A stretch of 64,000 nt of DNA. It comes from Chrysomallon squamiferum. Lineage: Eukaryota; Mollusca; Gastropoda; Neomphalida; Peltospiridae. Below the pieces are notes generated by a model. The model worked only from the letters and a program-made list of their open reading frames with translations, had not been told where the DNA came from and made no database searches. This document shows positions 11,069 to 60,771 of the stretch, one piece after another. The translations under genes and the position numbers were made by a program. The stretch spans positions 19,858,150 to 19,922,149 of the forward strand of contig CM022665.1 in NCBI GenBank assembly GCA_012295275.1. The letters run 5' to 3'. How positions within the stretch are numbered: the first letter of the stretch is position 1; each line of letters opens with the position of its first letter.

Positions 11069-11074
11069 AATAAA
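11069..11074 (+). terminator. Poly(A) signal of TMEM242
   Basis: AATAAA lies five bases after the TMEM242 stop and is followed by A-rich sequence. The short 3' UTR is plausible, though later signals could also be used. Confidence 0.55.
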
Positions 11075-11099
11075 ACATTTTTATTTTGAAAAAAAAAAA

Positions 11100-20900: not shown

Positions 20901-23689
20901 GAAACATTAATATTTATTAATCCTTTGTGTCATTATTAGCTTTCTGAGTACTCAACATTAATTCATCTTTCTGAGGATCTACACTAGGCACCCTTATTTT
21001 ACTTATTTGTTAAATGTTTATCACCTTTTCTAGATTTATGCAGATCTATACAAGGCATCTTAATTTTCCTATACTGAATGTTTAATTGTCTTTTCTGACA
21101 CTAGATTTCTGCACATCTAAAGTAGGCACCATAATTTTACTTATTTATCAAATGTTTAATTACAATTTCTAGATTTCTGAAGATTTATACTAGGTACCAT
21201 TATTTTACTATACCAAATATTTAATCACCTTTCTGCACACTAGATTTCTGCAGATCTATACTAGGCATCATTGTTTTACTAATGTGATTGTCAACTGTCA
21301 CTGGCTCAGTAGTTTGCTCTGGGTATGTGGTGTGTAATGGCAGTGAACGGTTGTGCCCGAGGGATGGAAGATTTCTGTTACAAGTGTTTTTATTCTGAAA
21401 GTAAAAACATTCCTGAAACGTAATCATCACATCCAGTGATGCTGAGATACGGTTGCTGCAGCAAGAACAAAGGACACAAGGATTATTAATAATAATAATA
21501 ATAACAACAATAACAATAACAATAAAAATAATATAAAATGAGTGCATTAGGTGACTTTCATTTTCTTCCAGTGGGACCCATGTTAAGATATTTCAAACTA
21601 TCCATTTTTTTTTTTTTTCAGGCCTCATATTTGTGTTATTTGTAAGTAAACACAAACATTAGTCTTATTAAGGAAATCATCTCTTTAAGTGGTACACTGC
21701 GAGACACATGCTCATAGGCAATGGGTGCATGACACTGATTATAACACATAGACTATGGTTGAACTTACTATAAAAAATTCACAGAAAACCAACAAACATA
21801 ACAACTAAACATTCCATTCAGTTTTAAATAATTTTAAGTAAAATAATTTAATGAATTACCATATTCACAATCAATATTTTAAATAACTTAAAGTTAAATA
21901 ACCATTCAGTTAAATGTTTAAAAAAACAAATTAAACTTTTTATAAAAATTACAAAAGTATTTCGTCTTCTGACTCTTGCTGATAAACTGAGATCCATTAA
22001 GTTATCTCCCTTCATTGTATGCTCAAGTTGTGATCTCTCTTCTTCATATTCCTCACTGTCTTCTATATGACCATTCTGTTGCCGTGGATTTGCAGTCACT
22101 ATCATATGACAACCACCACATGCCACCTGGCAAACACAAACAAACACTGTTAAACACTAATGACAATTTACAAAAAAAAAAGACAAAAATTCAAAAATTG
22201 GAATTGCATAATTTTGTACAGTTTTTGGATTGTTTTGTATGCCCAAACTTATTTTATGCACAAAATTATAAAAAATATGTATAAAAACTCTGCAGACTAT
22301 TTGTTTAAGCTGCATATGAAATATAAATGGAATTTGTACATAGACCTAGATCCTATTCTTAGGCTATCCCCTTATTTTCCAGAATCTGAAACACTTCTGA
22401 TCCCAAGTATTTCAGAAAGAGAATATTTAACAGATTTACTTAAGTGGATCTTTGGGTTTCATTGTGTAGATTTAGTTTAAACAATGATATTTTACACTGC
22501 ACAGAATCAACTGACATTTTTAATGTTACAATGCTATATTAGATATTGTGAACCATGTTGGTGTATGTAATAATGGTGTAGATGTTGTAAACCCTGACAT
22601 TGTGAATTGTGCTGGTGCAGATGTTGTTAACACTGATGTTGTGAATTGTGATGGAATGATGGTGTGGATGTTGTTGTAAACACTCACTCTGTCAACAAAA
22701 CATCTCATCAGACAATCACACCTAGTTGGCTTGTACAGGTTGGTGAAACACTCTGTCCCTTGGGCTAGTTTACCATGGCGACCGTCACCAAATGTATACA
22801 AATATCCTCGCTCTACAACCAGTAACAACATTTTCTGTTAATATGCGATGCTCAGAATTAATGTTTTAACTCACCAGTATCTGTGTAATAATAATAGTAC
22901 ATGATCACAGACTTGGTAAAACTATTCAGTACAACAACAAAATACTGTTACTCATTCACTCTAGACACATTCTGAGGACTGAACCTATAATTTAAAAAAT
23001 AAAAATAAAAATAAAAATAAAAATAAAAATAAAAATAAAAATAATGTTACTCATTCCTTCTTTACAAACTTTTAGGGAGGATCAAAAATGAATGTTGGAA
23101 AACTGATTTGAAAAATTATTACAAAGAATGGAAAAATTTTAAAGTCTAGATTACCTGTAATGATAGCAGTAAAGTTTTCACCACAAATCACCTGTGTCAC
23201 TGTTGGGGTCATTTTGACCTGTTGAGGAGTGGCTGTCTCCATCACCATGGTTCCCAGACCTAGTTGTCCATTACTGCCATCTCCACATGTATAGACTGTA
23301 CCATTTTCTAAAATATATTATTGCAAATATATAGACAATAATTTTCTGAAATATATTATTATAATAAACATATAGAATATATAATTTTCTGAAATAAAGA
23401 TATTACTAATATCACAAATATACAGACTACCTTTTTCTGAAATATATTGGTATTAGAATAAGTAAACAGACATGACTATTTTCTACTGAGATATTATCAT
23501 CTCCATGTTATGAATGGTGATATTTTCTAAATTACTGAGCACTATGTGTTACAGAGTATCATACATTTATGTCTTTACATTTTATTTCTTTTTTACTTTA
23601 AAAAGTTTCTTTAAAAAAATCTTCTGTCAACAGTATCTTTAAAAATTCAGATATAAGAATTATTCCAAATTTAGCCCCTCCCCAAAAAA

Positions 23690-23734
<45 letters not shown>

Positions 23735-26700
23735 GAAAAGAAAAAACAGAAATAATAATAATAATAATAATAATAATAATCATAATAATAACAACAACAA
23801 CAGTAATAATACTGAATGTAATACGTGTGTTTACCTGTGAGAGCTGCAGTGTGTGATCCACCACAAGACACAGCTTTCACCTTCTCGGGTATGGAAGACA
23901 CCTGCTCGGGCTCATTAACGTTGTTTTTGTGACTCAGACCAAGTTTACCACTGTCATTTTCTCCAAATGTGTACAAGTCTCCTGCCTCTGTAAAGACAAA
24001 CTGAATTTTTTACATCTCATTACACATTAACAACCACACACATCTACAAATAACAAGTTTAAACATACAGACCTGCATAGTTCACTGTAACAAATTTGTA
24101 ATTATACCTGAATTACTAACAGTAACTGTACGATATGAAAGTTCTATTAGTGCATGAATACACTGTTTCAGTAGTAACTAGATGATGTCAAAATGTCTGA
24201 GATATTCAGTGAAAAGCAACAACAGATAAATATGGGACAGTAATCAGTTATTGTAAGTACAGGATGTGAAATTACTAACATTTATTCAGTGACAAAAATA
24301 ATTACTGGAATTTAACTATTTACAGTAACTGCTGATGTAAAATTTCTAAGATGTAGTAACCAGATGATATAAAATTTCTAAGATATCCAGTACAAATAAT
24401 AATAAATATTGGAATGTAACTATTGATAGTAACTACATGATACAAATTTTTTTCAGCAAAACGGATAACAATAAGTACTGGGATGTAACTATTAATAGTA
24501 ACTATATGATGTAAAATAGCTAAGAAATTCAGTGAAAACTAATAATACTCAGAGGTCTCACTACATGCTGTAAGAGATGGCAGGCCCACCATCCCTTATG
24601 GCTTACTATGAGTTTGCCCACCATTCCTCAGCAACGGCATCAGTATTAGTGTTTATTTAGTGAACTTCATTTTGTATAATAAATTAAACAGACACTTTGA
24701 TGTTATTTAATTGCTAGTACAATAAACTTGTTAATAGTTAATGCATTTGATGCAATTATTTAAAGGAGTATTTTTGACAAACAAGTAATTTGAACATTGT
24801 TCAGAGTACTTGTACCCTGAACATTTTCTGTACCATCCCTTTCTTTAACTTGCACCAGTTATACTGATTTCTGCCATCCCTTTCACAAATGCTGGGGAGA
24901 CCTTTGATACATAAATATTGGTATACAGCCAAATATAATAAGATATTCAGCAACAATAATAGATAAATATTGGAATGCAGGTACTAACAGTAACTGCATG
25001 ATGTGAAATTTCTAAGATATTCAGTGATAAATAATTCTAAATATTAAACCTGTAACAACTGCTGTGTGGTAGTAACCACATGCTATATAAATAATATTTT
25101 CATCAAATTCCAACTTTGTTGGGGTGGAACACCCTTCAGCTTCCCCGAGGCCAAGTTGTCCCTCTCCATTGCTGCCCCACACGAAAACCTGCCCATCCTC
25201 TGAAATGATAATTTTTTAAACTAAGTACATTTGTACTAAACCAAAAATACCTGATCATCCTCTGAAATCATAATCTTGTAAAGTAAATTTATTCTAAACA
25301 CACTCACATGCCCAGTCATACATACAAACACACGCACACCATACACACATACACACCAAACACTCCATCTGCACACATAGCGCACACACATACACTACAA
25401 ATACTATACACACACAGTATACAAAGAAAAATAAAATTATACACACACACAGTACACACATATACAGAACACACACACACGTACAGTATATACCTACACA
25501 TTACACAAAGAGAAATAAAGTACACACACACACACACACACACTAATGATGTCACCTGTTAAGGCCACACTGTGTTCTGCTCCAGCATCAAGCATCTTGT
25601 ATGACATTTCTGCTACATTTTCTACACACATAGGAACACTGCAGTCCTGAACATCCTCCACACCCAGTTGTCCCTCACTGTTTGATCCAAATGTATACAA
25701 TGTACCAGATTCTGTGTAAGTAAATATTGTTCATAAATATACTTTATTACTGCGACAATACACTAGTATAGTACTACATTGTGTGTGTTTGTATATATTC
25801 ATTTGAAATACACATACAAAGATAACATTTGACAGAATGGCATTCAAGATGGAGAGAGCTTACCAAACACACACACAGAGCTTATATATATACATATATG
25901 AGACACAGACACTAATAATCATCAGTAGACCCAATTGTTTTTCACGATCACAGTAAACAGATAGAATTTGCGGAATTCATGTTGTGGAACGGAAATCATA
26001 TTTTGAAATGGAATTTTAATTTTCAGCGAAGTCGAAAAACAATTACCATTTTACTTTTGTCACAGCCTATGAAACTGACGATTTGTCAATGTTGTCAAAG
26101 GTGTGATGTCTCATTTACAAGATATCTGCTTGCAGTCATGCTTGCATGGTTGCTATATTCCTGGTCATTAAATGGTTTTAGTGAAGTTTTGTTTTCTTTA
26201 CAGCCTGTCAGCCCTGATTCACTTTGAATAAAACACTGTCTGATCTTAGTTGCAAAATTATGTTTTATTACATTTAGTTGTTTTAATTGTGGTCTTTGAT
26301 CCTGATGTGACCTTTCACAACTAACGCATACTTTTCATATAGCGATGCAAATCTACGCCATGGTATCGCATTATCAATGTGACCAGTCTGTACGTAAATA
26401 ACGTAGTGACATCATTGATATAACTGGAATTGGTTGTATTTTAATTACAATTGTGTTAATATTTCACTAAATACTTTCTCAATAAATGCACAGTGTATTA
26501 GATTATATCAAAGGTTTTTTTCCTGCATGATTCCTTCAAGTGTATGTACTGCCGTTTTTGAGATAAATGTGAAGTGCATTCAGCGTAATGGAGACACTGA
26601 AGGTCATTTCAGTTAAATCTTGAATAAATACCATTTTCTCCTTTTTTAAATTATGTTAGTGTATTTGATACATTAGTTCTTAATTACATAATTTATTCGT

Positions 26701-27788: not shown

Positions 27789-27848
<60 letters not shown>

Positions 27849-31162: not shown

Positions 31163-31168
31163 TTTATT
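31163..31168 (-). terminator. Candidate poly(A) signal of akirin
   Basis: AATAAA on the minus strand about 126 bases after the akirin stop. Another lies near 30649. Confidence 0.4.
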
Positions 31169-31293
31169 GAGAAAAAATAATTAATTAAAAAAAAAAAAAT
31201 AAAACAAATTAAAAAAAAACTGCACTGCATTGATTTTCCAGCAAAATGAAACCACAGATAGCTTGTTATTCTCCACCAGTAAATATTCTCACT

Positions 31294-34015: not shown

Positions 34016-34569
34016 CTTTAAAACCTAACAGGCCGATGGCTTGTTTAGTTTTACCTTAAAATACTATATACTGATGGCTGAACTTAAAATTGCTGTGGTC
34101 TAAAACTTATCTCAATCCTTTCTCTCGCAGTAAAACAAACAACTACGGCTGTTAAAATATTAGAAAACCAAAGATGATAATGGATAGTAATCAACTACTT
34201 CTACAATCTCAACTACAAAATGGCAGCCGTTTTTGATTGTTTAGCCTCGTTCTCGATTTGTAAACTTCAGCTGATATATATATATAAATTTGAACACAAT
34301 GAGTCAACTGAAAACGAATTTTAAAATTCTTTATTACTTCTTCTCTTAACATAAAACCTGTAAAAAATAAACCTAATATTTATTTTTGCTTTTGTTTTAT
34401 GAATTAAATCAGCATAATAAGCTATTAATTTGTTATCCTTTTAAACTTTTTTGTGGTTTCCTAGAAGTGCTTTTTCGTTTCTTTTTTCGAAGTAATTTTA
34501 TAAAAACTACATCTTACAAAAATTTGAAAGTAACATTATTTCTGATCGAACTTTCGACCTCCTTCATCC

Positions 34570-34814
34570 TTGTATATATAGCATGGACCAATGATTTAAA
34601 AAAAATTAAAATAGGAAACTCATTGTTTGCATACATAACAATACAGGTTTTAGAAGAAGAATGCTTTTTATTATTTGTTTTCAATTTTCTGTTCTAAAAT
34701 AGGCATCAAGCATTATAATGAATGTATCAAGGCAATCATTCATATGACACGTGATCAGTTTGCTTTTTACAGGTGCATATACCATCTCTAATATATTCAG
34801 AATTTAAATATTAT

Positions 34815-34858
<44 letters not shown>

Positions 34859-35230
34859 ATATTGGTTTCAAGTATTGTTTTACAACTACGTACTCAGAAC
34901 TGTCCGCTATGGAATTTTGGCAGTGTAACGTGTAACAATTATGGTACCTAATGAGAATAGTCGTTTCCATATTCACACGCTAGTGTCTGTGAAAATTATT
35001 AAATTTTTAATTTTTATTTATTTATTTATTTTTTTGCTGGCGAAGTAATATTTGAAAAAAATATAGCACGAAATGCGTTCGAGATGGTGTGATGTCAAAG
35101 TTACGCATCAGAGCCCAAGAGAAAATAATATTCAGGTGAAGTTTGTACCCAGTAAATCGGCGAAATCAGGAGGCATTTTTTCCGATAACGCAATTTTCGC
35201 TGTTACGAGTTATCGTTCCTGTTGGTCCAT

Positions 35231-35276
<46 letters not shown>

Positions 35277-36480
35277 GATTGCCTAACAAATGCATTGACA
35301 TTGCATTGTTTACTATAAACTTTATATCGATCCGGGGGAAATACGGGTTTCTGTTCATTGCATCGACCAATGATTTTTTTGATTTTTATGTTGTTTTTTT
35401 ATTCGAACAGGAAACTCGTTGTTTGCATACATAAACTTTAGGTTTTAGAGGATGAATGATTTTTATTTCAACGAAAAAGAATGAAAAATTAATTTTTAAC
35501 TTATCTTTTTATACCATCGGTTGACAGACCTTTAAAACTATTTTTAAATTTTCTGTCGAAAAACTGGTATCAAGCACTATAATGAATGTATCAGGGCAAT
35601 CATTCAAATAACACGTGATTAATTTGCTTTTTACATATAAATATGACTCTAATGCACTGAAAATGGAAATAAATATTATAAAAGAAAGAAATAATAATAA
35701 TAATAATAATAATAATTAAAATGGTTTCACGTATTGTTTTATAACAACGTACTCAGAACTGTCCGCTATAGAGTTTTGGCAGAGTAACGGGTCCACATTA
35801 TGGTACCTAATGAAAATAGTTATTTTGATATTCACGCGCCAATATCTGTGAAAATTATTATATATTTATTTATTTATTTATTTTGCTGGCAATAATGTTG
35901 GAATCGAAATATAGTAAGAAACGGGTACGAGATGGTATGACGTCAAAGTATTCAAAAAAAAAAAAAAAATTGTTTCGACCTTTGCAACAATTTCTATTCA
36001 ATAATGGACATCTATATATACGAGGCGCTGATTATATGATATAGTTTTTAAAAATCCATGTAAATTGATTGCATCATGAAGGAATATATGTTTAAAAGTT
36101 TGTAAATACTGACTGGCGTCGGACGCCGCCATTTGAATTTCGATCGGAAATTTCCGTGCATGCTCGGAAACCGTTACGTCGGGGGTTTTAAACTTCCAAA
36201 TTCAACAATTTACATCCATTGCTGAATTTGTATTTTATGATTTAAGGTAAGGATGATTATTCATATTACCAAACCACGATGTACAAATCCTTTCCTAAAT
36301 ACTTTTTCAACTTAATCAAACGTTTCAAATTGGCAATGTTCCCCATGTCAGAACTAATCGTAAAAGAACATTCAAGCCTAGTTTGTACCCATTAAAACAG
36401 GAGAAATCTGGAGCCATTTTTTTCAGCAGACGCAATTTGTGTCGTTACGAGTTATTGTTCCTGTTGGTTCGTGCTAGTAT
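34570..36480. repeat. Diverged tandem duplication of ~0.8 kb
   Basis: A segment starting near 34570 (accaatgattt, ggaaactcattgtttgcatac) is repeated from about 35360. Both copies share aatgaatgtatca and ggcaatcattca, actcagaactgtccgctat, cctaatga and cgagatggt. The end of unit A (gtttgtacccagtaaa, gttacgagttatcgttcctg) matches 36385-36475, so unit B appears interrupted by about 400 bases near 35950-36355. A poly(A) run lies at 34819-34856 and a (CT)n run at 35232-35272. No coding capacity is seen. Confidence 0.7.
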
Positions 36481-40370: not shown

Positions 40371-40373
40371 ATA

Positions 40374-40435
40374 TTATTTATTTTATTTTATTTTATTTTA
40401 TTTTATTTTATTTTATTTTATTTTATTTTATTTTT
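40374..40435. repeat. (TTTTA)n microsatellite
   Basis: About twelve copies of the pentamer TTTTA, just upstream of the SHPRH start exon. Confidence 0.95.
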
Positions 40436-40510
40436 TTCCCTTAATTAACTGTTACCAACATAACACTATTAACAGTAAAATGTGGTGACTATTTTTCAGT
40501 TTGATGCATC

Positions 40511-46500: not shown

Positions 46501-49500
46501 ACTGTCATGTGATATCTGTAAGTTACAAGTGTTGTCACTGACATGTCATATCTGTAAGTAACTGAAGTTTTACTATCATGATATTATATACAGGGTGGCC
46601 CAGATGTAACCAAACCTGAATTGTTATGAAAAGTTACAGTTAAATGAAACAAATTTTATTTCATATAGTTACAGCAAATGTTCAAAAGGCAAACCATTAT
46701 TTGTAATACAGTGATGACATTGTTCAATGGTTGAATCAGTTACTTCGGTATTTCGTGAAGCAGACTTGAAATCGATTGAGCTTTCAGGTTCGGTTACATC
46801 TGGGCCACCCTGTATATACTCAACCTCATTGTTATATAATTGTTTTTCAGGAAAATATTTTAATTTATTATTGATTTCTATTATTTTTATTTATTTATTT
46901 TTTTAAGTTAATATTCTGATTCTGTTTTATGTTCTTTAAAGTCATCTTGAAATATTGTTTTATATTTATACAAAATTTTATTTGTTTCAGTCTCCAATTC
47001 CTTCTGGGGCCACACTCATCATCTCACCTGTGTCCATCAGTGACCAGTGGATGGATGAGATCTCAAAACACATCACACAAAAATCTCTCAGTGTCTTTGT
47101 AAGTAGCTTTTATCTGTGTACTTACCTTTTTTAAGATATTTCTTTCTGCTTATTAATTTTTGTAAAGTATTTTATATTTTTCATTTACTTTTTATCTATC
47201 TGTCTATTGCTAGATATTTTATAACTTTCTACCCACCTTCTATTTGTAACATATTTTATATCTTTTTTTTTGTTTTTCATCTACCTTTTATAAGATAGTT
47301 TTATGTATTTCTTATCTTTTTATCTGTCTGTCTTTGGGTAAGATATTTTTTGTCTTTTTATCTACCTTTTGCAAGATTGTTTATATCTTCCTACCTTCTT
47401 AGATTTTAAAAATATTTTATATTTATGGGTGTACTTTTCTACTTACATTCCTGCTTAACTACCTATTCTTCTTCTATTTATATCTCTCTGTCTATCTCTC
47501 ATTCTAACTGTTTGTCTATCTGTTTCTGTATCTTTCTCTCTGTTTGTCTGTATATCTATATATGTATCTGTCTTCATGACAGCCTGTCTACTACATCTGT
47601 CTGTCTGTATCCTATCTGTCCATTTACCTATCTATACATATATATATATTTTATTTTTTCTGTCTATGTATCTGTCTGTCTAGCTGTTGATCAAGGTGTC
47701 TGTAGTGTGTGTCTGTATTTCTATAATATTTTACAGGTGTACAGTGGTGTGAACAAACTTGGCTACATTCAGCCACAGACACTCGCCAGCTACAACATCG
47801 TCATCACAACGTATGAGACTCTGAGAAAAGAGATAGACTACGTCGACCTTCCACACAGCAACAGTAAGATAAAACAAAATCATTTTTATATCGCTTGATA
47901 CTTTATTTCATTTATTGTGTGCAAATAGTAATTTACATATTATATAGAAAATAATAAACATTTTATTTGTAAATGCAGAAATTATGCTAAGTACCGAAAA
48001 TAATTTACATGTTGTATGTAAATGTACAAATTATCTTGTACAGGAAATATATTGTATATGTTATATATAAATAAGTAAATTATTTAATAATTCTTATCTT
48101 TATTTGGTGTGAGTAATTTATTTTGATTTATTTATTTATTTATTTTTTTTTTAATCTGTCTGATTAATCAATGTAAATTAACTGGATGTGGTTTTTATAT
48201 ATTCAGGTGATATGGGTCGACGTTTTCGACATCCAAAACGGTTTATGGCAATTCCAAGTCCAATCATTTCTGTAGAATGGTGGAGAGTAAGAATCTTTTT
48301 TGTTTTTTAATATTCTGTTTATTTTACTTGACATTTATTTATTTATTTATTTATTACTATTATTTTTATTCTTCTTCTTATTATTATTACTATTTTTATC
48401 GTTATTATTATTATTATTGTTGCTGTTATTATTATTATTATTGTTATTATTAATATTATTATTATAACTATTATTATTATTATTATTATTTCTTTTTCTT
48501 TTCTAAAACTTAACAGGATAGTTGTGTTAAAATGTATCTGATTCCTAATTTTGATCATTTATCTTTTTCTTCACATATGTTATTTAACTCTGCTTTAACT
48601 CTTCAGGGCTTGCTCTGTTTTTCAAACAGGAATAATTGCACCAGGTTTTTTTTATTATTTTATTTTATTTTATTTTTTTTATTTATATGAGTTGTTTATT
48701 TGAAAATATTTGTTATTATTATTACTGTTAATATGATTATTATTATTATTATTATTATTATTATTTTTCAGATTTGTCTAGATGAGGCTCAGATGGTTGA
48801 GTGTACAACAACAAAAGTGAATTTTTGAAAATGTCTCAGTTTGAAACTTGTTGTCTGTTAACATATTTATTGTGTTAAATATAAACTGTTAGTTAAAATA
48901 TAGTAAATTCTCTTAGTTTATAAGCAAGTATTTTCTGTTTACAAATTAATTTAATAAATATGAATTAGTTTCACTAAGAAATGATTAATTATAATATAGT
49001 AAATCTTTTTTTGTTTACAGACAAATAGTTCTCTGTTATGATAAATATAAACTAGTTTCACTGAAACGATTAAGTGAAATTGTTATTTTTTTATTATACA
49101 AACAAGTAGTTGTCTATTATAAATACGAATAGGTATCACTATAAAATTATCAGTTACAGTAGAGTAAATCTGTGTACAGATAAAAAGATGTTGTTTAGGT
49201 AAATATAAACTAGTTTCACTATGAAATAATTAACTAAAATGTTATAAATCCTGTTTGTGTACAGATAAAAAGACATTGTTGTGTAGGTAAAGTTCTATGT
49301 TTTCAGACTGCTGAAATGGCACTGAGATTGTCAGCTGTAAACAGATGGTGTGTAACTGGGACTCCAGTACAGAAAAGTGTTGAAGGTAGATAACTCTGTT
49401 TACAAGTTTAATATGTAAAAATCAGAAAAATATCTATATTTCTGTCTGTTTCTCTGTCAACCTCTCTATCTCTTTATTTTTAAATTGATCTATCTCCTAT

Positions 49501-52500
49501 CTACCAGTCTATCCATCTTATCTATCTATATATGTACCTGTGTTGTATACTATTTTATATTACATATTAGTACTATTAATAATAAGTTATGTTAAATATA
49601 TCTATACTATTAATATGTCATATTACATATTTGTACATACTGTTAATAATATGTTACATTACAGATTTGTATGGTCTGGTGTTGTTTCTGGGTATTGACC
49701 CATATTGGGTTCAGCAGTGGTGGAAGATGTTGCTGTATGAACCGTTTTGTTACGGTGTTGAGTCACCCATATATGATGTGCTCAGTCAGGTGTTGTGGAG
49801 AACATCAAAGAAAGACGTGTTAGATCAGGTACACACTGAGTTAATTAAATGAGAGTTTTTTATATGATGTGAAACATGTAGTTTATTCCATACTAAAGAT
49901 ATGTTTTTTTACAGATAGAGTTATACTGACTTTATTGTATGGGTGGAAATATAAAGTTTAATTTATACTGTAGATAGATGAGATAGATAGATAGACAGAT
50001 AGATAGATATTATTTACAAATAGTTACCAGGATTGTATTGTATGAGTTGATATACAATGTTTAATTCATACTGTAGAGAGATAGATAGACAAATAGACAT
50101 TATTTATAGATAGAATTGTCTCGATATTATTGTATGAGTTGAGATATGAAGTTTAATTCATACTGAAGATATATAATATTCACTACAGATAGAATTACCC
50201 AGTCAGGTAGAAGAAGTTCACTGGCTGACATTTTCACCCGTTGAAGAACATTTCTATCGTAGACAATTCCACGATTGTGTGAAGATTTCCATGCAGGTAG
50301 CCAATGTTTTAATTGTTTAATTTATTTAAAATATTTTTATATGGTTTTCTATATAAATACATTTACACAGAGGTAGCTATTTGTTTCAAACTATGATGAA
50401 AATAACATATACAGTATCTACATAAATACATTTACAAACTTAGACATTTTATTAAATGTCTTCATAAATAACATATGTATTAAATACAATTAAGCTTTTT
50501 ACAAAACTTCTGTGTAAAGTATTTATGAAGCATATATTTTAGAAAAATTCAGTAAAAAGTTAAATAGTTCCATGTAAAATATTTAACTAATATTTATTTC
50601 ACGAAATCTAAGTAAATGATAAAATAGTTCTGTGTAAAATATTTAAGTAAAATTTATTTCACAGAATCTAAGTAAATGATAAAATAGTTCTGTGTAAAAT
50701 ATTTAATTAAAATTTATTTCACAGAATCTAAGTAAATGATAAAATAGTTCTGTGTAAAATATTTAAGTAAAATTTATTTCACAGAATCTAAGTAAGTGGT
50801 CTGATAGTTCTGTGAAGCTGAGTAGTTTGGATCGACACACAATGACTCAGGTGAGCTTTGAACCCACATACCTCAGAGTTTGTTAGTTTAACATTTCACA
50901 GTACTTTCCTTTCCTATTTTGATATTTCATTGTCTGTAAGCAGTAGATTAAGTGAGTAAATTTTATTTGTATTAAACTATGTTTGAGTTTATTTTATGCT
51001 ATATTCACTAATATGATACAAGTGACTTGTTTCAGTTACTGTGAAAATATTTTAACATTTAAAACATTTAACTTCATGCTTCAGTGGTTTTACAAGTTGA
51101 AAGGTTCATAAAATTTTATAACATTTTATAAGTGAATGGCAATGATAGATTGATTTAAAAATAAATTCAGATTGCATTATAAAAATCAAATATGATTGTG
51201 TTCTAAAAATCGATTGATTGTATTTTATGGTTTATTTAGTGCGTTTTATTAAAAATCAAATACTGAAATAGTAATTGTTATATAAATCAAATAGTGATTG
51301 TTATTAAAATGAAACAGTGATTGTTTTATGAAAATCAAATAGTGATTGTATTATGAAAGTAAAATAATTATTATAAAAATCAAAATTGTCTTTCAGCTGT
51401 TGAATCCTCTGCTGAAACTGAGACAAGCTTGTTGTCACCCCCAGGCAGTGAGGGGGGAATTTCTACCTTTACAGAAGAGGTGAAATTATTTCTTTTAAAA
51501 AATATTCTTATCTGTGTTGCTATGTTAAACTGGTAATCAGATGTTAAAGTGATCAGCAATATTATTTTGATTTCCTGATTTCAGTGAAAGTTAAGTTAGA
51601 ACAAACAAATTGTTTTAAACAGATCACAATTTCATAATGTCAGATCCAGTTTTGTTTTTGGTCATATCTGAAATATTGACTCACTTCATGTTATTTTCTT
51701 GATGTGTGCAGAATTACTCAACAATATTTTTTATAGGTATGTAAATATGTATGTACCAAGTGTTGTATATAAACATGTATGTAACAAGAGTTGTATATAA
51801 ATGTGTATCACACAGTACACTAACTATGGAAGAGTTGCTGCAGTCGCTGATTAAGAAAGTCAAGTTGGAGTGTGAAGAGGCTCATAGACAACTTGTAGCA
51901 GCTCTCAATGGCCTGGCAGCTATAGACATCATAAAGGAAGAGGTATGTGATAAATATATAAATTTATATGTTAGGAAAACACATCACAATGAAAGAGCTA
52001 TGTATTAAATATGTAAATTTATAACATCATAAAGAAAGAGGCATAAAAACTGTGATATTCAAGCTGTTACAAAGTACAGATATGAAATTTCAGTATGTTC
52101 ATAACGTACAGGGAAGTGTTGATACACAATTTCAGCATGTTGATGCTGTATGGGGAAGTGTTGATGTATAATTAAAGTATGTTGATGGTGTACAGAGGTA
52201 TAGGGAAGTGTTGATGTATAATTTCAGTATGTTGATGCTGTACAGAAGTACAGGGAAGTGTTGATGTCAGTGGAGGAACACAAGAATGAGCTGAGAACTG
52301 ATGACTTACAACAGCTACATGCGATGCACAACCTCCGAGAGTTGTTGACGATGAAGCCAGCAGGAGTCCACCCAACACTGAGAGATGACCTCCTCCAACA
52401 GCAGGTTTTATCAATTGTTTTATTTTAGTAACCTTGATTTACACATTTCTAATTTTAACTTTTTTTTTTTGATTACCTTGATTTACACATTTCTAATTTT

Positions 52501-54920
52501 AACATTTTGTTATTAATCTTTATTTACAAGATTTTATTTTTAACTCTTTATTTTTTATTTTAACATTGTTATTAATCTTGATTTACAAAATTTAAAAAAA
52601 ATATTAATCATTTGTTATTTAGCTGAATGTACATATTTAATTTATTATTAATTTACATGGTGATTGCTTGGTTAATCAGTTATTTGTTTTAGTCATGGAA
52701 TGTTTTTTTTGTAATGTTACTTTGTAAAGTAAATGTTTGTTTTTTTGTGTGTATTTTAAGACACAAGATCTGAGAGAGAAGTACATGTTAAAAGTAGCAG
52801 GGAAAGTACAGAATGCCATGGAGAGCTTACTTCCTGTCCAGTCCAGCATCCGAGAACTGCAAAAACAGGTTACAGTCATCATCATCCAGTCTCATGATTA
52901 GAAAAACTCTAAATATGATAATGATAATGATAATAAAAATAATAATAATAACAATAATAATAACAATAACAATAATAAAGTAAAAAACAAACCAAATAAA
53001 TCATTTATGAGAGTTTACATGTAGATTTACTGGACATCAGATCATCAATTTTGAGAAAAATCATTGTGTGCTTCGAGGCCCCAAAGGGGTCTTGTACCAC
53101 CTCGCAAAATTTCTCTTGGAGGCCCTGAACAGGATTTCAGTGTTTGTTAGTTTTGTAGTAGACGTAGCATAATAATTTATTTTGTGATTTTTTATCTTAG
53201 TTTTCTGAAGAAAGTGACTGATAATCTATACTAGACACAGTTTATTAGACATAGTTTATAGTAATTTTCAGACTCTATGATGTACATATGTGATTTTTAA
53301 TTCTAGCTTTTTTGAAGAAAGTGACTGGTATTCTGTACTAGTTTAAGTTTAAAGTAATCATTTTCACTCTGTGTGTACGTAGGTTTCTAATTGTTGTTTT
53401 CTGACGGAAGTAAGAGGTAGTCAACACTAGACTTGGTTTATAGTAATAATTTAGACTAATGATACACACAGATGTGATTTCCAATTGTAGTTTTCTAAAG
53501 GAAATGAAAAGTATTCTATACTACACTTAGTTTAGATTAATAATCTGGACTACATTTTAAACATAATTGTGATTTTTAATTGTAGTTTTCCAAAGGAAGT
53601 GACTGGTGGAGTGGCTTTCTGGACTGGGTGAACAGTCACAACTTGCAGGATGTTCTGATTGAGAGAATTCGTGAAGATTTGTCTGAAAGTCATGAAATAA
53701 ACAGTCTGATATACAGGTGAAACTTTTTAATGTACAAAATATAAATAAATACATTCATCGCTGTTTAAATGTGTGCAAAAAAAAAAAAAAAATATATATA
53801 TATATGTAGATAAACAGATAAAATTTAAGATACAGACATGTTTAATATTACTGAGACATACAGTTTTAAATATTTAAAATAAAGATGTTCAAAATATCAG
53901 ACATGATTATGGAAATAAACTGCTTATGGCTGTATTTAAATATTGATCTATTTAGCTACTGATATATTTTGGAATAGATATATTTTGATAATCATATATT
54001 TAGATATTGATATATTTAGATATTCATATACTTAAATACTGATATATTTTGATATTTATATATTTAGATACTGATATATTTAGATATTGATATATCTGGA
54101 TACTGATATATTTAGATATTATATATTTACGTATTGATATATATATATATAGATATTTATATATTTAGATATTGATATATTTGGATATTGATGTTTTTAG
54201 ATACTGATGTATTTAGGTATTGATATATTTAGATACTAATATATTTAGATTTTAATATATTTACATATTGATGTATTTAGATATTGATATATTTAGATAT
54301 TGATGTATTTAGTTATTGATATATTTAGATATTGATGCATTTAGTTATTGATATATTCAGATATTGTTATTTTTAAATAATGATATATCTGGAAATTGAT
54401 GTATTTAGATACTGATATATTTAGATATTGATACATGTAGATGTTGATATATTTAAATACTGGTATATTTACATATTGCAATATATATTTACAGGATGGC
54501 AATAAAGTCACTATGCAGTTACTTACAATAACAATTAAGACAAAAAAAATTAATCAAATTTATTATTAAAATGGTTCTGGTTATTTCTGGTTAATAACAA
54601 TAAAATGATACATGGTAAACAATAGTAAATTAATTACCGATACTGTTTGAACTACATTCCTTTGCTTTGTTATTATAAGTAACTGTATAGTGACTTTATT
54701 GCCACCCTATATATTTTTGTTACAGGTTCAGAGATCTGAGAGGGTTGCAGTATGTAGTGTACACTCAACTCAACATGTTGGAATCCAGTCACTCAAAACT
54801 CACCTCTGAAGTCTTACAAATTAGTGACAGACCTTCACAACAAACAGTAAACAAAACAGTCGAATGTTGTCTGAGACCCGAAAAAAACATACTCAAAATG
54901 TGAATATGTTTATTTATTTA

Positions 54921-54958
<38 letters not shown>

Positions 54959-57900
54959 TGAACTGTCTGAAAAAATCACACTCAAAATGTGAATATGTTT
55001 ATTTATTCTGTGTGTGTGTGTGTGTGTGTGTCTGAACACAAAAACAACATACTCAAAATGTCAATATGTTTATTTAATAATTATGTCTATGTGTGTGTCT
55101 ACAAATTTCATATCAGACTGTAATCCAGTCAGATGAAATTTGTCGAAGACTAAAATTTAATAATCACTCTAAATATTCAGTTAACCTCTATGTAAATATG
55201 CATTAAGAAGTTTGTATGTGTGTGTACATCAATCTGTCTATCAACTTTGTATCTATCTAGCTATCTATCTATCTATCTATCTACTATGTATGTATGTATG
55301 TATCTATCTACGTATCTATATCTATCTACTATGTATGTATGTATGTATCTATCTACGTATCTATATCTATCTATCTGTGTGTCTTCTATCTATTATCTGT
55401 CTCTCTGTCTGTCTATCTATACTTCTCAGTGCATTAAACTTTGTTTTTGTTGCACAAACTAAAGAACATGTGCTTACATTTCAGTTGTCCTTTCTGTCAA
55501 GTAGATGAACTCTTTAATGAATATGAGAGCAAATTGTTTTCATTTGTAGAAAAGTAAGTTAAAATATAACTTCTGTAATTAATATTAATTACTATGCAAC
55601 AGTTAAAAGTTGGAACTGTTGTTTAAGTGATATGTAATTAATGTCAAATATTTGTATTTTTTATATGACTTGTAACTATATTAATTCTTCATAATTGTTG
55701 TTCCCCATACTGTCTGTTAAGAATCATTCTCATGTATTCTAATGTACCAGAGTCTGCTTGGTAATCCTTTAATGAAAAAATGTACACTGTCATTATCTCT
55801 AAGTCATAATAATATTATAACTCATATATACTGGATTTTTTTTTGTTTTGAAAAGGGGTGTGTCTACTCTGGGGGTCGAGGATGACCTTCAGTACCAGGT
55901 ACACACAAAACGACAGGGGACATGGGCTGACAGTGAGCTGGAGAGAATTATTAAATGTATTTATAATTTTGCCAGAATACACAGACGTAAGTATTTTTTT
56001 TATTTTATTATTTTTTGTTTTCTTAACCATTCAGGGCTGGCACTGTTTTTCATTCTTGAATAATTGCACTGGATTTCATACAACCATTTTTGTTTTTATT
56101 GTTATATATTTTTAATGTATGTGAGCTCTTTGTTGTAAATAAAAATAAGAGGTATTACAGAACATTTATTATTATTAAAGAATAGTAAATTCCAATGTCA
56201 CCACACAATTCTTTCAGTAAGAAACTTAAAGATAAAATGTGCAAGGATCTGTCAGAACCAGCAGAAGCCCCGAAGGGTTAAATAAAATAAACACAATTTA
56301 CATTTTAAATGAACTAATGAATAAACTAAATAACATTAGTATTTTTATATTCATTGTCTTTGCATATGTTTATATAAAAATTATTTTACAAATCATGTCA
56401 GTGTTTTACTTGTATATCTGTAATGTGAGATAGTTTCAGTCACTCTGTGTCTGATTGTTTGAGTGTATGTATGTGTACTTGTTTATTTCAGTGCCAGCAA
56501 ACTATAAGGAAATGTTGGAGTTTGGAAATTCACACATAAAATTGTTTGATCTGCTTAAGAAAGAATTTAAGGTGAGTGTGCATATCTGTAATCAAAAGTT
56601 TACTTGTAATTAAAATTTACCTGTGATTATTAGTTTACCTCTAATAAAATTTTACCTCAAATTATTATTTTGGCTGTAATAAATATTTATATATAATTAT
56701 TAGTTTAGCTATAATAAAAATTTATCTTTAATAAAAGAATTCATCTTTAATTGAAAATTACCTGTAATTATTAGTTTACCTATAATAAAAATGTACATGT
56801 AATCAGTAGTTCATCAGTAAAAAATATGTATTTCTCTTATTATTGTACACAGAATCTACGTTATGTTTGGCTGGCAGCTAGAGAGCAGGTTTCTTCTCTA
56901 GATGAGCTGGACATGGCAACAACAAGGCTGAGAGTGAGGTTTCAGGATGAACCAGTATCTGAAATACATCAACCTCATGTGTTAGAGAGAGGCCAGGTCA
57001 GTCCTGTTTAAGTTTTCTTAGCAAGTAAAACATCTTTTTAACTTCATGTGTTGGACAGGTTAGTCCTGTTTAAGTTTTCTAACAAGTAAAACATCTTTTT
57101 ATCTTGATGTGTTAGACAGGTTAGTTCTATTTAAGTTTTCTAACAAGTAAAACATCTTTTTAACTTCAAGTGTTAGACATGCCAGTTCTGTTAAAGTTTT
57201 CAAACAAGTAAAGCATCTTTTTAATTTGATGTGTTAGATAGGTCAGTTCTGTTTTAGTTTTCTAATAAGTAAAACATTTCAGATCAATCATGTAATGTTA
57301 AATGACATTTTGGTTATACACATTTTTACTTCAGATCAAAGAAACTAGCTGTAATGATATAGTGTTTGTGTGTGTTACACTGAATTCCATGTTTAAAAAA
57401 TATTAAGGTGTTGTCTGATTAACTGACTTGTAATGATAAATCATGCTTAACATAAACATATCACAAAATGAATGAATCACAATTACTTTACTTAACATGT
57501 TAATGACAGTTTGTTCATCAGAATATTTTAATGATTGTTAAATAACAAGTTAATGAAGGAAATAGCAAGAGAATATAGCTAGCACATCTCATAAATAGTG
57601 ATCTTCTGCATTAAATACAGATTAATAGATCACACTGTGATCATCTCTGATTGGTTACTTTGTTTTTTCAGGTGGACCTGCAGCGAATGAAACTGCTTGG
57701 TGACAAGGCCACAGGAAGTAATGATCTGAGAAAGAGGCTAGGCCAACTTTACTATCTAAATAATCTTGCAAAGGTTTCTCTATAAAACTTTACTTATTTT
57801 TATTTTTTTTATTTTTATTTTTTAATCATCGACATTTTTAGAAACTTTTATATTTTAATTATTATTATTATTATAGCTATTGGTTAGGTAATTTTTCAGT

Positions 57901-60771
57901 TTAGCATGATATTATTAATATGTAATATCAGCTGCACAATACAGAGAATAATATAACATATATAACATTTGTCAAAGTATATTTGATACATAACTATTGT
58001 CCTAAAATAATATTGTGTTTCAGTATGTAATATATGAAATGTCCAACATTGTTTTAAACACCACTGTAAAATGTATTACATGAGATATTTAATATTATTT
58101 GAAACATGATTGTAATATGTAATACGTGAGATATTTAATATTATTTAAAACATAAATGTAATATGTAATACACTAAATTTTTCACATTGTTTTACAGACA
58201 CAACTAGACACTGAAGGTGACCAGTTGAACCCTGACCCCTGTCCTATCTGTCAGAGAGAACTTGGAGCAGAAGTATGAATATTTTACATCTGAATTAAGT
58301 ATTCAAAAATAATTTGAAATTATTATTATTGTTACTGTCGTTATTATTCTTTCTTTCTTTTTTTTTTGGAATGACAGAAATTATTATCAAAGCCTTTAGA
58401 AATGTCTACATTGTACATTATTATCTGATAAATATATCAGAAGGTATAATTCTAATTGCAAATACTTTATTTATACACACACATACATACAAACATATGC
58501 ACATGCACATACATTTGTTTAATGTAGTGTTTTTTATTTCAGTGGAGTGTGTTACAGTGTGGTCACTGTTTCTGTTTGGACTGTGTTCGCATCATGGTTG
58601 ACAACTTCAGTGTTGGAGGACGTCACAGGTCAGTGAAGTGTGCCCTGTGTCGAGAGAGAACTCACCATGGAGAAATTTCCTATGTGAGCACCAAGAAAAG
58701 TCAACACACTGAGGAGCAGTTCTCTGTGAAGGTTTGAAGTTAATTTATTATATATGCACATACATATATAACATACATACATACATACATACATACATAC
58801 ATACATACACATACACTAGTGTTATTTTACAGGACAGTCACTAATCAGCATTATTTTAAAGGGCAGTCACTAATCAGTGTTATTTTAAAGGGCAGTCACT
58901 AATCACTAGTGTTTATTTTACAGGGCAGTCACCCATCATTAGTGTTATTTTACAGGAAAGTCACGCATCATTAGTGTTATTTTACAGGAAAGTCACTAAT
59001 CACTAGTGTTATTTTACAGGGCAGTCACTCTACAAAAGTTGAAGCTGTAGTGAGATGTATTTTACAAATACGTAAAACTGATCAAAAAGCCAAAGCTCTC
59101 ATTTTCTCTTCAGTAAGTAAATTATTTCTTCACTTTTACCTTAACACAGTTTATAAACATTGTGTTCTTCATTTTTTGAAAACTGTTTGTATTGTCAAAT
59201 ATTATATTGTATTTTACAGACTAAAATATATACAATTTGAATATAGCTGATAAACTATATTATATCTGTCAGATATTGTGCTCTGCTTTTTAGACTGAAA
59301 TATATACAATTTGAATATGACTAATAAACCTCATTATAACTGTTAGATAGTGTACTGTACTTTGCAGTCTAAAATATATACAATTTGAATATGACTGATG
59401 AACTGCATTATTATTATTAGTTGTTGTTGTTGATGTTGTTATTGTTTCATAATTATCATTATTGTTTTCATCATTATCATTATTACTACTACTATTACTA
59501 CCAGTATTACTACTACCACCATCACCAGCACTATTACTATCATTATTATTGTTATTAATATATTTAGTAACATAATTTCTGCATTTTATTTTTTTTAAAC
59601 TTTACTGTTTTTTTTATAGTATTTGAGTACACAGTGTGTGTGTGTGTATATATATGTTTTTTTTTCTAATGTTGTTAAATAGGATATATTTGAATTCTTG
59701 CTTGTTTGTTTATTTAGTGGCAGGATGTTCTGGGAATCATTGAGCAGGCACTTAGAGAAAATGACATCTCCTGTCTGTCACTACACACTCCAGGTAAATT
59801 CCAGGTATGTATGCCTTGTTTATTTAACTACTAGTTTTTCTGTTTTTAATTTTCCGTAACCAAATTTGTTTATTTTCAAACATCTGTTTGTTTTTAAAAA
59901 TATAGAAAAACCTGACATCATTCAAAGAAGATGATGTCACAGCACTGTTGTTGCCAATCCACTCTGGTTCTAATGGTTTGAATCTGATAGAAGCAACTCA
60001 TGTACTGTTGGTGGAGCCAATTCTCAACCCCGCCCAGGAGCTACAGGCTGTAGGGAGGGTCCACAGGATTGGACAGACCAGGTCAGCTGAAATCTTCTAT
60101 TTTTATATTTTTTTATATTAACATATCATTTTTAATAATTACATGATATTAGCATATATCAGTTTTAATAATTATATGATGTTAACATACCAGTTTTAAT
60201 AATTACATATTACCATGCTAATTGTAATAATTGCATGATTTACTGTATCAGTTTTAATAATTATATTTAATAATCCTCATTATTGTTTGCTGTTTCAGTA
60301 TTTCTGAAAGTTAAGATAATAAAAAGTATTTAATTTATCAACATAGATGTTAACTGGATCAAAGACAATGTTTTGATATTTTTATTTTCTAAATATTTAA
60401 TGTATTTAACTGTACTTTTATTGTATTTGACTTTATTTTTAATGTATTATTTGTGTTTTAAATGCGGTAAACTATTTTTAATATATGTAACTGTATTTTT
60501 AGTGTATTTAACTGTATTTGTGATGTATTTACTGTATCTTTAATGTATTTGACTGTAGTTTTAATTTATTTTACTGTGTCTCAGGCCTACCACAGTTCAT
60601 CATTTTCTTGTTCGAGGCACAATCGAGGAAAGAATCAACACAATGGTGAGATCAATAGCAAAGTCTGCCGATGTACACGATGCCAATGAGGTCGCTTTAA
60701 CAATTGGACAATTGACATCTCTGTTTCAGGAAAATGATGACTCCAGCGAGGACCAATCTTCAAATAGATAA
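40511..60771 (+). CDS. SHPRH: SHPRH, SNF2-family helicase and E3 ubiquitin ligase (complete, 31 coding exons)
   Basis: SHPRH polyubiquitinates PCNA at stalled forks and remodels nucleosomes in the nucleus. Exons: 40511-41065, 41854-42025, 42643-42855, 43702-43774, 44174-44336, 44811-46382, 46991-47098, 47737-47863, 48207-48286, 48772-48816, 49307-49385, 49665-49828, 50189-50296, 50785-50850, 51397-51479, 51816-51942, 52246-52404, 52761-52868, 53586-53716, 54726-54899, 55485-55553, 55856-55986, 56492-56571, 56853-56996, 57672-57773, 58198-58272, 58543-58731, 59020-59112, 59718-59804, 59906-60081, 60585-60771. All phases match, giving 1879 residues (human about 1683). The Walker A DEMGLGKT is at about 357-364, PHD finger at about 866-912, DEAQ box at 1025-1028, RING at about 1626-1680 and helicase motif VI (VGRVHRIGQT) near 1808. 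The PHD sits between Walker A and the DEAQ box, and the RING before the C-lobe, the SHPRH layout. The start follows a possible 5' UTR acceptor (tttttcag) 17 bases upstream. Confidence 0.97.
41250..41853 (+). repeat. Junction-derived tandem array before SHPRH exon 2 (decoy acceptors)
   Basis: The real acceptor reads ttgttatttag|GTGGTTAAAG. About twenty upstream copies of ttgttatgtag|gtgtattt, spaced 18-35 bases apart, repeat the pyrimidine tract, the TAG and the first GTG-like bases. Confidence 0.7.
42026..42405 (+). repeat. Junction-derived tandem array after SHPRH exon 2 (decoy donors)
   Basis: The exon 2 end and donor read AATATCTGCTCAATTTA|gtaagtaaa. About thirteen copies follow with a 25-30 base period, such as tatctgctcaatttagtaag and tcttcttaatttagtaagag. 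Many keep a GTAAG-like donor. Confidence 0.85.
42905..43290 (+). repeat. Tandem repeats in SHPRH intron 3
   Basis: Eight or more copies of a 30-60 base unit with acattgataatttaaagt and tgtaataaaaat. They do not include exon sequence. Confidence 0.75.
44811..46382 (+). CDS. SHPRH: SHPRH exon 6: large acidic/Ser-Thr-rich insert plus PHD finger
   Basis: This 1572-base exon encodes 524 residues inserted in the N-terminal ATPase lobe. Most of it is Asp/Glu/Ser/Thr-rich, with internal repeats such as SDTDSYIKDTKSD and SSHSDKTSHSDKTSHSSE. The last 50 residues form a PHD finger (ECICG, CVVCSLWQHAACMKY, YKCPHC). I do not see the globular linker-histone (H15) domain that human SHPRH carries in this interval. 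The frame is open throughout and both phases fit the neighbouring exons. Confidence 0.9.
46383..46588 (+). repeat. Junction-derived tandem array after SHPRH exon 6 (decoy donors)
   Basis: The exon end and donor read TCACTGCCATGTGATATCT|gtaag. About six copies follow with a 30-40 base period, such as tcttactgtcatgtgatatc followed by tgtaag. Three of them (near 46447, 46517 and 46556) keep an intact TCT|GTAAG donor. Confidence 0.9.
46589..46814. mobile_element. Mariner/Tc1-like MITE 2 in SHPRH intron 6
   Basis: The terminal inverted repeats begin CAGGGTGGCCCAGATGTAAC and extend about 29 bases with one mismatch. TA flanks both sides. The core is 222 bases with no coding capacity. The first 12 bases are identical to MITE 1. 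Confidence 0.85.
48595..48655. mobile_element. Fragment related to the piggyBac-like MITE
   Basis: ttaactcttcagggct and tctgtttttca, then gaataattgcacc, closely match the left end of the element at 56023. A matching right end is not seen nearby, so this is a partial copy in SHPRH intron 9. Confidence 0.5.
49895..50188 (+). repeat. Junction-derived tandem copies before SHPRH exon 13 (decoy acceptors)
   Basis: The real acceptor reads cactacag|ATAGAATTACCCAG. Upstream copies read ttttacag|atagagttatact and tttatag|atagaattgtctcg, and each is followed by attgtatgagttga and tttaattcatact. GATA repeats lie between them. Confidence 0.7.
50530..50784 (+). repeat. Exact 60-base tandem array before SHPRH exon 14 (decoy acceptors)
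   Basis: The real site at 50784 reads tttcacag|AATCTAAGTAAGTGG. Copies at exactly 60-base spacing put cacag|aatctaagtaaatga at 50724 and 50664, and a degraded one at 50604. Each copy also repeats the exon bases TAGTTCTGTG. In frame, the copies hit TGA at codon 5. Confidence 0.95.
52080..52245 (+). repeat. Junction-derived tandem array before SHPRH exon 17 (decoy acceptors)
   Basis: The real acceptor reads gctgtacag|AAGTACAGGGAAGTG. Three or four upstream copies carry gggaagtgttgatgtataat and atgttgatg. The nearest, at 52195, keeps gtgtacag|aggtatagggaagtg. Confidence 0.9.
53179..53585 (+). repeat. Junction-derived tandem array before SHPRH exon 19 (decoy acceptors)
   Basis: The real site reads tttttaattgtag|TTTTCCAAAGGAAGTGAC. 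Four copies about 95-110 bases apart read like atcttag|ttttctgaagaaagtgac and ccaattgtag|ttttctaaaggaaatga. Each carries about 25 bases of exon-like sequence. Confidence 0.9.
53935..54489. repeat. AT-rich satellite, unit tatatttagatattga
   Basis: More than thirty copies of a 12-16 base unit (atatttagatattgat) form a 0.55-kb array in SHPRH intron 19. MITE 3 abuts it on the right. Confidence 0.9.
54490..54711. mobile_element. Mariner/Tc1-like MITE 3 in SHPRH intron 19
   Basis: Terminal inverted repeats of about 43 bases begin CAGGATGGCAATAAAGTCAC on the left and, reverse-complemented, TAGGGTGGCAATAAAGTCAC on the right. They have a few mismatches and are flanked by TA. The core is 218 bases. 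The GGxTGGC head is shared with MITEs 1 and 2. Its right end lies 14 bases before the exon 20 acceptor. Confidence 0.85.
54900..55075 (+). repeat. Junction-derived tandem copies after SHPRH exon 20 (decoy donors), with GT runs
   Basis: The exon end and donor read ACATACTCAAAAT|gtgaat. Copies at about 54961-55007 (tcacactcaaaat|gtgaat) and 55031-55073 (acatactcaaaat|gtcaat) repeat both sides of the junction and are separated by GT microsatellites. Confidence 0.9.
55250..55410. repeat. (CTAT)n/(GTAT)n tetranucleotide region
   Basis: CTAT and GTAT repeats with a duplicated block of about 47 bases, in SHPRH intron 20. Confidence 0.9.
56023..56281. mobile_element. PiggyBac-like MITE in SHPRH intron 22
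   Basis: The element is bounded by TTAA on both sides, the piggyBac target. The left end TTAACCATTCAGGGCTGGC and the right end, reverse-complemented TTAACCCTTCGGGGCTTC, form imperfect inverted repeats. It is 259 bases with no coding capacity, and a related fragment lies at 48595. Confidence 0.65.
56997..57275 (+). repeat. Junction-derived tandem array after SHPRH exon 24 (decoy donors)
   Basis: The exon end and donor read CATGTGTTAGAGAGAGGCCAG split before gtcagtcctgtttaag. Four copies with a period near 62 bases follow, such as catgtgttggacag|gttag and gatgtgttagacag|gttag. Two keep CAG|GT. Confidence 0.9.
57275..57671 (+). other. Rest of SHPRH intron 24, no feature seen
   Basis: Ordinary AT-rich intron sequence up to the exon 25 acceptor. 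Confidence 0.5.
58772..58808. repeat. (ATAC)n microsatellite
   Basis: About nine copies of ATAC in SHPRH intron 27. Confidence 0.95.
58823..59019 (+). repeat. Junction-derived tandem array before SHPRH exon 28 (decoy acceptors)
   Basis: The real site reads ttattttacag|GGCAGTCACTC. Six copies 30-37 bases apart precede it, such as ttattttacag|ggcagtcaccc and ttacag|gaaagtcacta. Four keep an intact CAG. Reading on from the decoys meets TAG in frame. Confidence 0.95.

Follow-up and report, generated by a model that had tools for sequence, protein, structure and literature searches.

The window analysed here is a stretch of 64,000 nucleotides from the gastropod Chrysomallon squamiferum (contig CM022665.1, positions 19,858,150 to 19,922,149), contained in an assembly of 404.6 Mb in 22 contigs. 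In a preliminary description of this DNA, about fifteen splice junctions of three genes, SHPRH, RPGR and akirin, were reported to be copied into tandem arrays in the flanking intron. The locus raises the question of whether splice junctions are themselves favoured by a duplication process, or whether tandem duplications that ignore gene structure simply reach some exon edges and are tolerated there.

Gene models and exon edges copied into their own introns

The junctions of the three genes were taken from models whose final exon lists were chosen by eye, with the human proteins as the guide; the models of the first automatic gene finder were dropped because of over-prediction. The models used were:

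40511-60771 (plus strand), SHPRH model, 31 exons in a single open frame
28050-18438 (minus strand), RPGR model, 13 exons, partial
34015-31980 (minus strand), akirin model, 3 exons, partial

The proteins of the window are closest to those of molluscs. Among the 120 matches listed for SHPRH, Bulinus ranked first by score and the highest identity (64%, over 71% of the query) was to Haliotis; akirin was closest to Haliotis (75%). The 30 SHPRH junctions were checked in an alignment with 13 chosen homologues, with an indel of more than 3 residues as the criterion. At 29 of the 30 junctions such an indel was present in at most 3 of the 13 homologues; the exception, the junction between exons 5 and 6, had one in 11 of 13 and adjoins a variable insert at exon 6, and several other junctions lay in alignment of low local identity (0.20-0.37). 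This agreement with the homologues indicates that the true SHPRH splice sites are well supported. At copied junctions the true site is the copy nearest the exon, and the open frames and homologues fit the predicted use of this exon-proximal site. Exon 2 of akirin apparently ends in a GC donor (GCAAGT, minus strand, 33122-33127), that is, in a GC-AG intron.

In a strict test of the 88 junctions of SHPRH, RPGR and akirin, each edge (8 intron nt and at most 40 exon nt) was aligned to the rest of its own intron, with each intron end searched separately. The flanks of all other introns served as controls, and a match counted only if it extended to the edge and included 8 or more exon nt. At twelve of the 88 junctions the adjoining intron contained a copy of the junction's own edge, including 9-40 nt of exon, that scored above every other intron (23-71 compared to 18-26 for the best cross-intron match), and both sides were affected (5 donors and 7 acceptors). 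In the inverted-orientation control, the control set of which also included the other end of the same intron, no match was obtained (0/88). These data demonstrate that exon-edge copying is real. The counted copies differed from the edge by 3-36%, copies below 62% identity being left uncounted, and the unit lengths of the junction arrays ranged from about 20 to 139 bp in Tandem Repeats Finder (TRF). A dispersed, introner-like element was rejected as the source, because no sequence family was common to the introns and all 12 edges matched their own intron best.

Of the fifteen junctions in the preliminary description, eleven passed the strict test. These were the acceptors of SHPRH exons 13 (weakly, 23 versus 20), 14, 17, 19 and 28 and of RPGR exons 6 and 8, and the donors of SHPRH exons 2, 6 and 20 and of RPGR exon 11, where the RPGR exons carry the earlier numbers, taken as the model numbers used here plus one. 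Four failed, three of them with weaker support. The acceptor of SHPRH exon 2 shares only about 4 nt of exon with its copies, but has 24 near-copies, 17 of them with AG; the copies of the SHPRH exon 24 donor are gapped, but form a 61-nt array; and the akirin exon 2 donor, which failed the strict rule, is overlapped over its last 11 nt by a TRF array of period 105 and gave a match in one of the five window settings described below. For the donor of RPGR exon 6 (earlier number) there was no support for copying, while the donor of SHPRH exon 16 was an extra strict match absent from the earlier list. The individual sites are:

41225..41856 (plus strand), SHPRH exon 2 acceptor: units of about 20-22 nt with TATGTAG/GTGTA (slash at the junction), about 4 nt of exon; TRF array, strict test failed
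42006..42405 (plus strand), SHPRH exon 2 donor: 25-nt unit (17 nt of exon end plus GTAAGTAA) repeated in 16 further copies; TRF array, strict match
46356..46584 (plus strand), SHPRH exon 6 donor, at the end of the PHD finger: units of about 36 nt, 27-30 nt of exon; strict match
49918..50197 (plus strand), SHPRH exon 13 acceptor: one weak copy that includes 9 exon nt; weakest of the strict matches
50500..50814 (plus strand), SHPRH exon 14 acceptor: 60-nt units that include 30 nt of exon, young in appearance (93% TRF matches); strict match
51921..52041 (plus strand), SHPRH exon 16 donor: 22 nt from the exon end recur 78 nt inside the intron; strict match, no match in the pooled test described below
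52086..52267 (plus strand), SHPRH exon 17 acceptor: 42-50-nt units, 38-40 nt of exon; TRF array, strict score 71 versus a best control of 26
53243..53607 (plus strand), SHPRH exon 19 acceptor: 94-nt units, 17-22 nt of exon; TRF array, strict match
54865..55068 (plus strand), SHPRH exon 20 donor: edge copied twice, about 50 and about 125 nt downstream, with 30-35 nt of exon; strict match
56970..57277 (plus strand), SHPRH exon 24 donor: 61-nt units with a degraded exon part (about 24 nt, gapped); TRF array, strict test failed
58814..59029 (plus strand), SHPRH exon 28 acceptor: 32-nt units, 9-11 nt of exon, AG kept in 6/6; TRF array, strict match
20931..21283 (minus strand), RPGR model exon 10 donor (earlier number 11): units of about 71/139 nt, about 38-45 nt of exon; TRF array, strict match
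23284..23500 (minus strand), RPGR model exon 7 acceptor (earlier number 8): units of about 43 nt, about 18-24 nt of exon, AG kept in 4/4; TRF array, strict match
25182..25268 (minus strand), RPGR model exon 5 acceptor (earlier number 6): one copy about 60 nt upstream, 16-18 nt of exon; strict match

Junction copying and the density of intron arrays

Minisatellite arrays, taken as merged TRF loci of period 15-200 with a best score of at least 100 and with low-complexity loci included, covered 46% of the intron DNA of SHPRH, 17% of that of RPGR and 12% of that of akirin. The rate at junctions was compared with the rate at which random intron positions fall within the end unit of an array, which is a fair background because only the end unit can span a junction without leaving copies in the exon. 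Across five window settings, 11-16 of the 88 junctions were matched, compared to 9.3-11.4 expected (odds ratio 1.16-1.68, p 0.09-0.63). A pooled test was performed on 240 junctions, 152 of which were gene-finder predictions from 28 other stretches (20 sampled and 8 with RCC1 genes); with the setting used here, this gene finder recovered 40 of 47 exons of its training window exactly, and copied donors were among its errors. In the exon-only setting 19 of the 240 junctions (7.9%) were matched versus 6.9% of 3019 intron windows, a ratio of 1.15 (95% interval 0.67-1.69), and in the junction-centred setting 22 of 240 were matched, a ratio of 1.33 (0.82-1.97). Separated by set, the junction-centred ratio was 1.31 in the window, 1.79 at the RCC1 loci and 0.68 at the sampled loci. 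In the first run on predicted exons, the junction-centred odds ratio for all other loci was 2.07 (p = 0.046) and that for the RCC1 loci 4.0 (p = 0.001), and the exon-only odds ratio was 1.47 (p = 0.27) and 1.59 (p = 0.33), respectively. In a rerun with a further 15 kb of sequence, with controls taken from intron flanks and with background windows lying closer, the two junction-centred values fell to 1.31 (0.54-2.40) and 1.79 (0.63-3.43). When the end-unit correction was omitted, exon edges were copied less often (6/43 donors and 3/43 acceptors) than intron windows (118 and 125 of 490), as is expected when only the first or last unit of an array can span a junction.

Within error, therefore, the overlap of arrays with exon edges does not exceed what intronic repeat density predicts (pooled ratio 1.15), the outcome that the preliminary description had named as a refutation, and the idea that the junctions are special was not supported. 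Because junctions are included at the rate of intron array ends, no junction-specific process is needed, and boundary-blind duplication together with selection on exons suffices. Junction-specific enrichment was rejected on the p values of the five window settings and on a pooled interval that includes 1; however, the estimates above 1 in the window and at the RCC1 loci, with the single RCC1 odds ratio of 4.0, mean that there may be a modest excess at junctions of up to about 2-fold.

Exon-edge copies are also found in genes elsewhere in the genome. At the threshold of the pooled test, chance alone lets through about one window in 41, and several of the 7-9 matches outside the window are accordingly noise. 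Five edge copies on other contigs were plain to the eye, namely two acceptors in locus L003 (copies at L003:464 and L003:2834), one donor in L023 and two donors in L032, and one such copy was alike at 37 of 38 nt and lay 126 nt upstream of an acceptor. The plain copies in these three loci indicate that the phenomenon is not confined to the genes of the window. Tandem copies were also seen within the window in two genes outside the junction test, which appear to be a ZDHHC14/18-like gene (2700-7700, minus strand) and a TMEM242-like gene (9200-11100, plus strand). When array density was measured in windows, introns differed little from other DNA at the sampled loci (170/960 versus 875/6268) and more at the RCC1 loci (187/1152 versus 48/729). 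Confinement of arrays to gene bodies, although clear in the window, was rejected as a general rule on the values for the sampled loci.

Tolerance of the copies and their splice signals

Copies on the exon side of the junction were nearly absent, with 0-2 of the 88 junctions affected in each window setting. Of the five arrays that lie wholly inside exons (TRF score of at least 50), four have periods divisible by 3, and all four are in SHPRH exon 6; the fifth, of period 23 in exon 1, is among the two weakest. Among intron arrays (TRF score of at least 100), 8 of 22 periods are divisible by 3. These data support the earlier proposal of a local tandem duplication that is tolerated only outside the exon. 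The in-exon repeats and an intergenic region used for contrast are:

44843..46037 (plus strand), repeats within SHPRH exon 6: tandem periods 21/42, 33, 27 and 18/36/54, all divisible by 3; TRF
34100..40400 (no strand), intergenic contrast region: without a minisatellite array at a TRF score of at least 100; CpG o/e 1.04

SHPRH exon 6 (44811-46382) opens with a long acidic stretch that consists partly of in-frame tandem repeats, and 11 of the 13 homologues have a deletion at its start. At 11 junctions, with exon parts and periods read by eye, the exon share of the unit was evenly spread (mean 0.50; KS test against uniform, p = 0.70), as is expected when unit ends ignore the junction.

Altogether, the arrays are likely to be minisatellites of the "mirage" type known from amphioxus, that is, local tandem duplications of about 20-140 bp that are blind to gene structure and some of which span an exon edge. 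This reading is based on the copies themselves, on a junction rate that matches that of array ends, on there being almost no copies on the exon side, on the bias towards in-frame periods within exons (in few arrays) and on the lack of a net loss of GT and AG from the copies. A break or slippage event would duplicate a segment without regard to gene structure, the copies would presumably misalign and expand into an array, and the array copies would decay like neutral intron DNA. Where the first unit spans a junction, new copies would fall on the intron side and be spliced out, so that the event is tolerated, while copies inside coding sequence would survive mostly if in frame. Splicing would go on using the exon-proximal copy, as the only one tied to the reading frame, and decoys would be ignored or their products destroyed. 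The duplication chemistry may involve, among other options, staggered breaks that are filled in and end-joined. In mouse ES cells, polymerase alpha-primase fills in 3' overhangs, and the end joining that follows gives tandem duplications of tens of bp (PMC8355091).

The splice signals carried by the copies were scored at 13 copied junctions, which were the 12 strict junctions without the SHPRH exon 13 acceptor and with the exon 2 acceptor and exon 24 donor of the same gene. A decoy within 300 nt scored at least as high as the true site at 10 of these 13 junctions versus 15 of the 75 others (Fisher p = 1e-4), which bears out the near-perfect competing splice sites reported previously, although the true sites at copied junctions also scored slightly lower on average (donors 2.00 versus 2.17, acceptors 3.10 versus 3.89). 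At 12 chosen junctions, GT or AG was retained in 52 of 76 copies compared to 45.0 expected from neighbouring dinucleotides (p = 0.13). Donor GT was retained in 18 of 31 copies versus 17.4 expected, and acceptor AG in 34 of 45 versus 27.5 (p = 0.048), a slight excess that rests largely on one array, since without SHPRH exon 2 the count was 17 of 21 (p = 0.25). There is thus no clear sign that decoy GT and AG are either purged or preserved, and no net loss of them. An in-frame stop was found 4-66 nt into the intron at all six copied donors tested, and a stop so soon after the exon would cause products mis-spliced at a downstream donor decoy to be removed as faulty messages. The preliminary description offered two alternatives, dominance of the true site through selection or a role of the arrays in splicing; with no clear selection for or against the decoys, neither is required by the sequence.

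Three other explanations were weighed against these data. Splice junctions could be hot spots of duplication, through RNA-DNA hybrids, bound splicing factors or the step in GC content at the exon edge, as the pooled junction-centred ratio of 1.33 and the first-run odds ratios of 4.0 (one RCC1 run) and 2.07 would suggest; however, the pooled 95% intervals include 1 in both settings, the exon-only ratio is 1.15, the p values of the five window settings are 0.09-0.63, and unit ends have no fixed place relative to the junction, and we consider hot spots improbable. That the decoys function in splicing, as redundant sites selected for back-up, for pacing or for poisoning some transcripts, is very unlikely: decoys are often as strong as the true site and acceptor AG is in slight excess, but this excess is not significant without the SHPRH exon 2 acceptor, donor GT is retained as expected, an in-frame stop follows each of the six copied donors, and in amphioxus RT-PCR suggested normal splicing (PMC3087553). 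An artefact of assembly or gene models could be entertained because the analysis rests on one assembled sequence, but it is scarcely credible; the divergence of the copies argues against an assembly artefact, the SHPRH junctions agree with homologues, and loci of other contigs have a like anatomy.

CpG depletion and relation to known systems

Array density is very uneven between genes, which plain blind duplication leaves unexplained. In SHPRH and RPGR, exons and introns alike have a CpG o/e of 0.21-0.25, versus 1.04 in the intergenic region at 34100-40400, and in 2-kb bins the SHPRH borders (40511-60771 versus 34100-40400) coincide with a step from about 1.0 to 0.2, which suggests mosaic gene-body methylation. 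CpG depletion is expected from germline gene-body methylation, a pattern that has been shown in oyster (PMC4378273). The arrays of the window end close to the gene borders. Outside the modelled genes, no array with a TRF score of at least 100 was found in 13.4 kb of the window, in three stretches, one of which probably holds the first exon of RPGR and the 3' end of akirin. In 20 loci sampled at fixed steps from contigs 1-3, array cover was 13.0% in the 74 bins with a CpG o/e below 0.5 versus 3.7% in the 117 others, a density ratio of 3.5 (1.6-6.8, resampling loci), and the trend in the window was stronger; shuffled DNA of all 26 loci had 1% array cover. Microsatellites showed the opposite CpG trend.

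These observations bring in a further explanation, in which arrays prefer germline-methylated gene bodies and junction copying is a by-product. Minisatellite birth would be tied to germline gene-body methylation, or to the accompanying transcription; repair of deaminated 5-methylcytosine would leave paired, closely spaced nicks, fill-in and joining at these would duplicate 20-140 bp, and the resulting arrays would fill introns and take in exon edges together with their splice sites. The contrast between the array cover of SHPRH and RPGR introns and the array-free 13.4 kb, the 3.5-fold ratio among sampled loci and the opposite behaviour of microsatellites all favour it. However, the locus-level correlation had p = 0.064 for the 20 loci (p = 0.03 with six RCC1-gene loci added), and a different density measure showed no rank correlation with CpG o/e (rho -0.08). 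Akirin introns run against the trend, being CpG-poor (0.15) with only 12% array cover, as do five CpG-poor loci with only 1-6% cover (L011, L016, L029, L030 and L034), and GC content is weakly correlated with both CpG o/e and array cover. It should also be noted that CpG o/e stands in for methylation here, and that methylation, transcription and a lack of transposons are inseparable in these data. We regard a link to methylation as a tentative and rather doubtful reading, although the CpG correlate is the part most worth following. If true, methylation-linked array birth would be a cause common to amphioxus too. An association of minisatellites with CpG-depleted gene bodies, if it holds, would mean that DNA methylation bears on how tandem repeats arise and on how introns grow.

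Mirage-type duplication, the reading preferred here, has its precedent in amphioxus, where mirages are tandem repeats with units of 10-160 bp that span exon-intron boundaries on either side, in the genes Adh3, the globins BflGb6 and BflGb9, TnC (troponin C) and, by likeness, PGBD5, and where Adh3 data and globin RT-PCR suggest normal splicing (PMC3087553, PMC3902484). Variation of copy number between alleles also belongs to the amphioxus definition. The arrays described here are like these in anatomy: the unit spans the exon-intron boundary (12/88 strict, 0/88 inverted), donor and acceptor sides are both affected (5 and 7), units measure about 20 to 139 bp, AG or GT is retained in a good part of the copies (52/76) although not in every one, and the copies are imperfect, as they are in PGBD5. 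They differ in that the host is a mollusc, that 12 of 88 junctions of three genes, and other genes besides, are involved, and that the copying was tested against intron array density, all of this being known from DNA sequence. No report of mirages in molluscs was found in the literature searched, which included mollusc and oyster work and lay mostly outside subscription papers. The mirage kind is thus already known from amphioxus, while the mollusc host, the scale, the density test and the CpG correlate are new.

In the human gene IFI6/G1P3, a 12-bp minisatellite gives multiple splice donors; the likeness is a donor embedded in a tandem array, and the difference is that this is a single human gene, in which more than one of the donors is reported to be used. 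Tandem genomic duplication as a route to intron gain, in the Rogers model (cited in PMC3087553) and in a case from potato (PMC4974935), likewise involves a duplicated segment that includes splice-site-like sequence. In such gain both ends of the intron would come from one duplicated AGGT segment; the introns here receive copies of one of their own ends. Ordinary intronic minisatellites have the same unit sizes and divergence, and the present arrays are set apart from them solely by a first or last unit that extends into the exon, as some arrays are expected to do by chance. A curiosity of a handful of amphioxus genes is thereby extended to a mollusc and to many junctions at once; strong decoys beside true sites, many per gene, make splice-site choice testable in natural arrays, and the comparison with the array-end rate is a way to test mirage formation.

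Apart from its arrays, SHPRH intron 6 contains at 46588-46820 a short element with inverted ends (ACAGGGTGGCCCAGATGTAACC ... GGTTACATCTGGGCCACCCTGT), which looks like a small mariner-type element, and a similar end lies near 28240.
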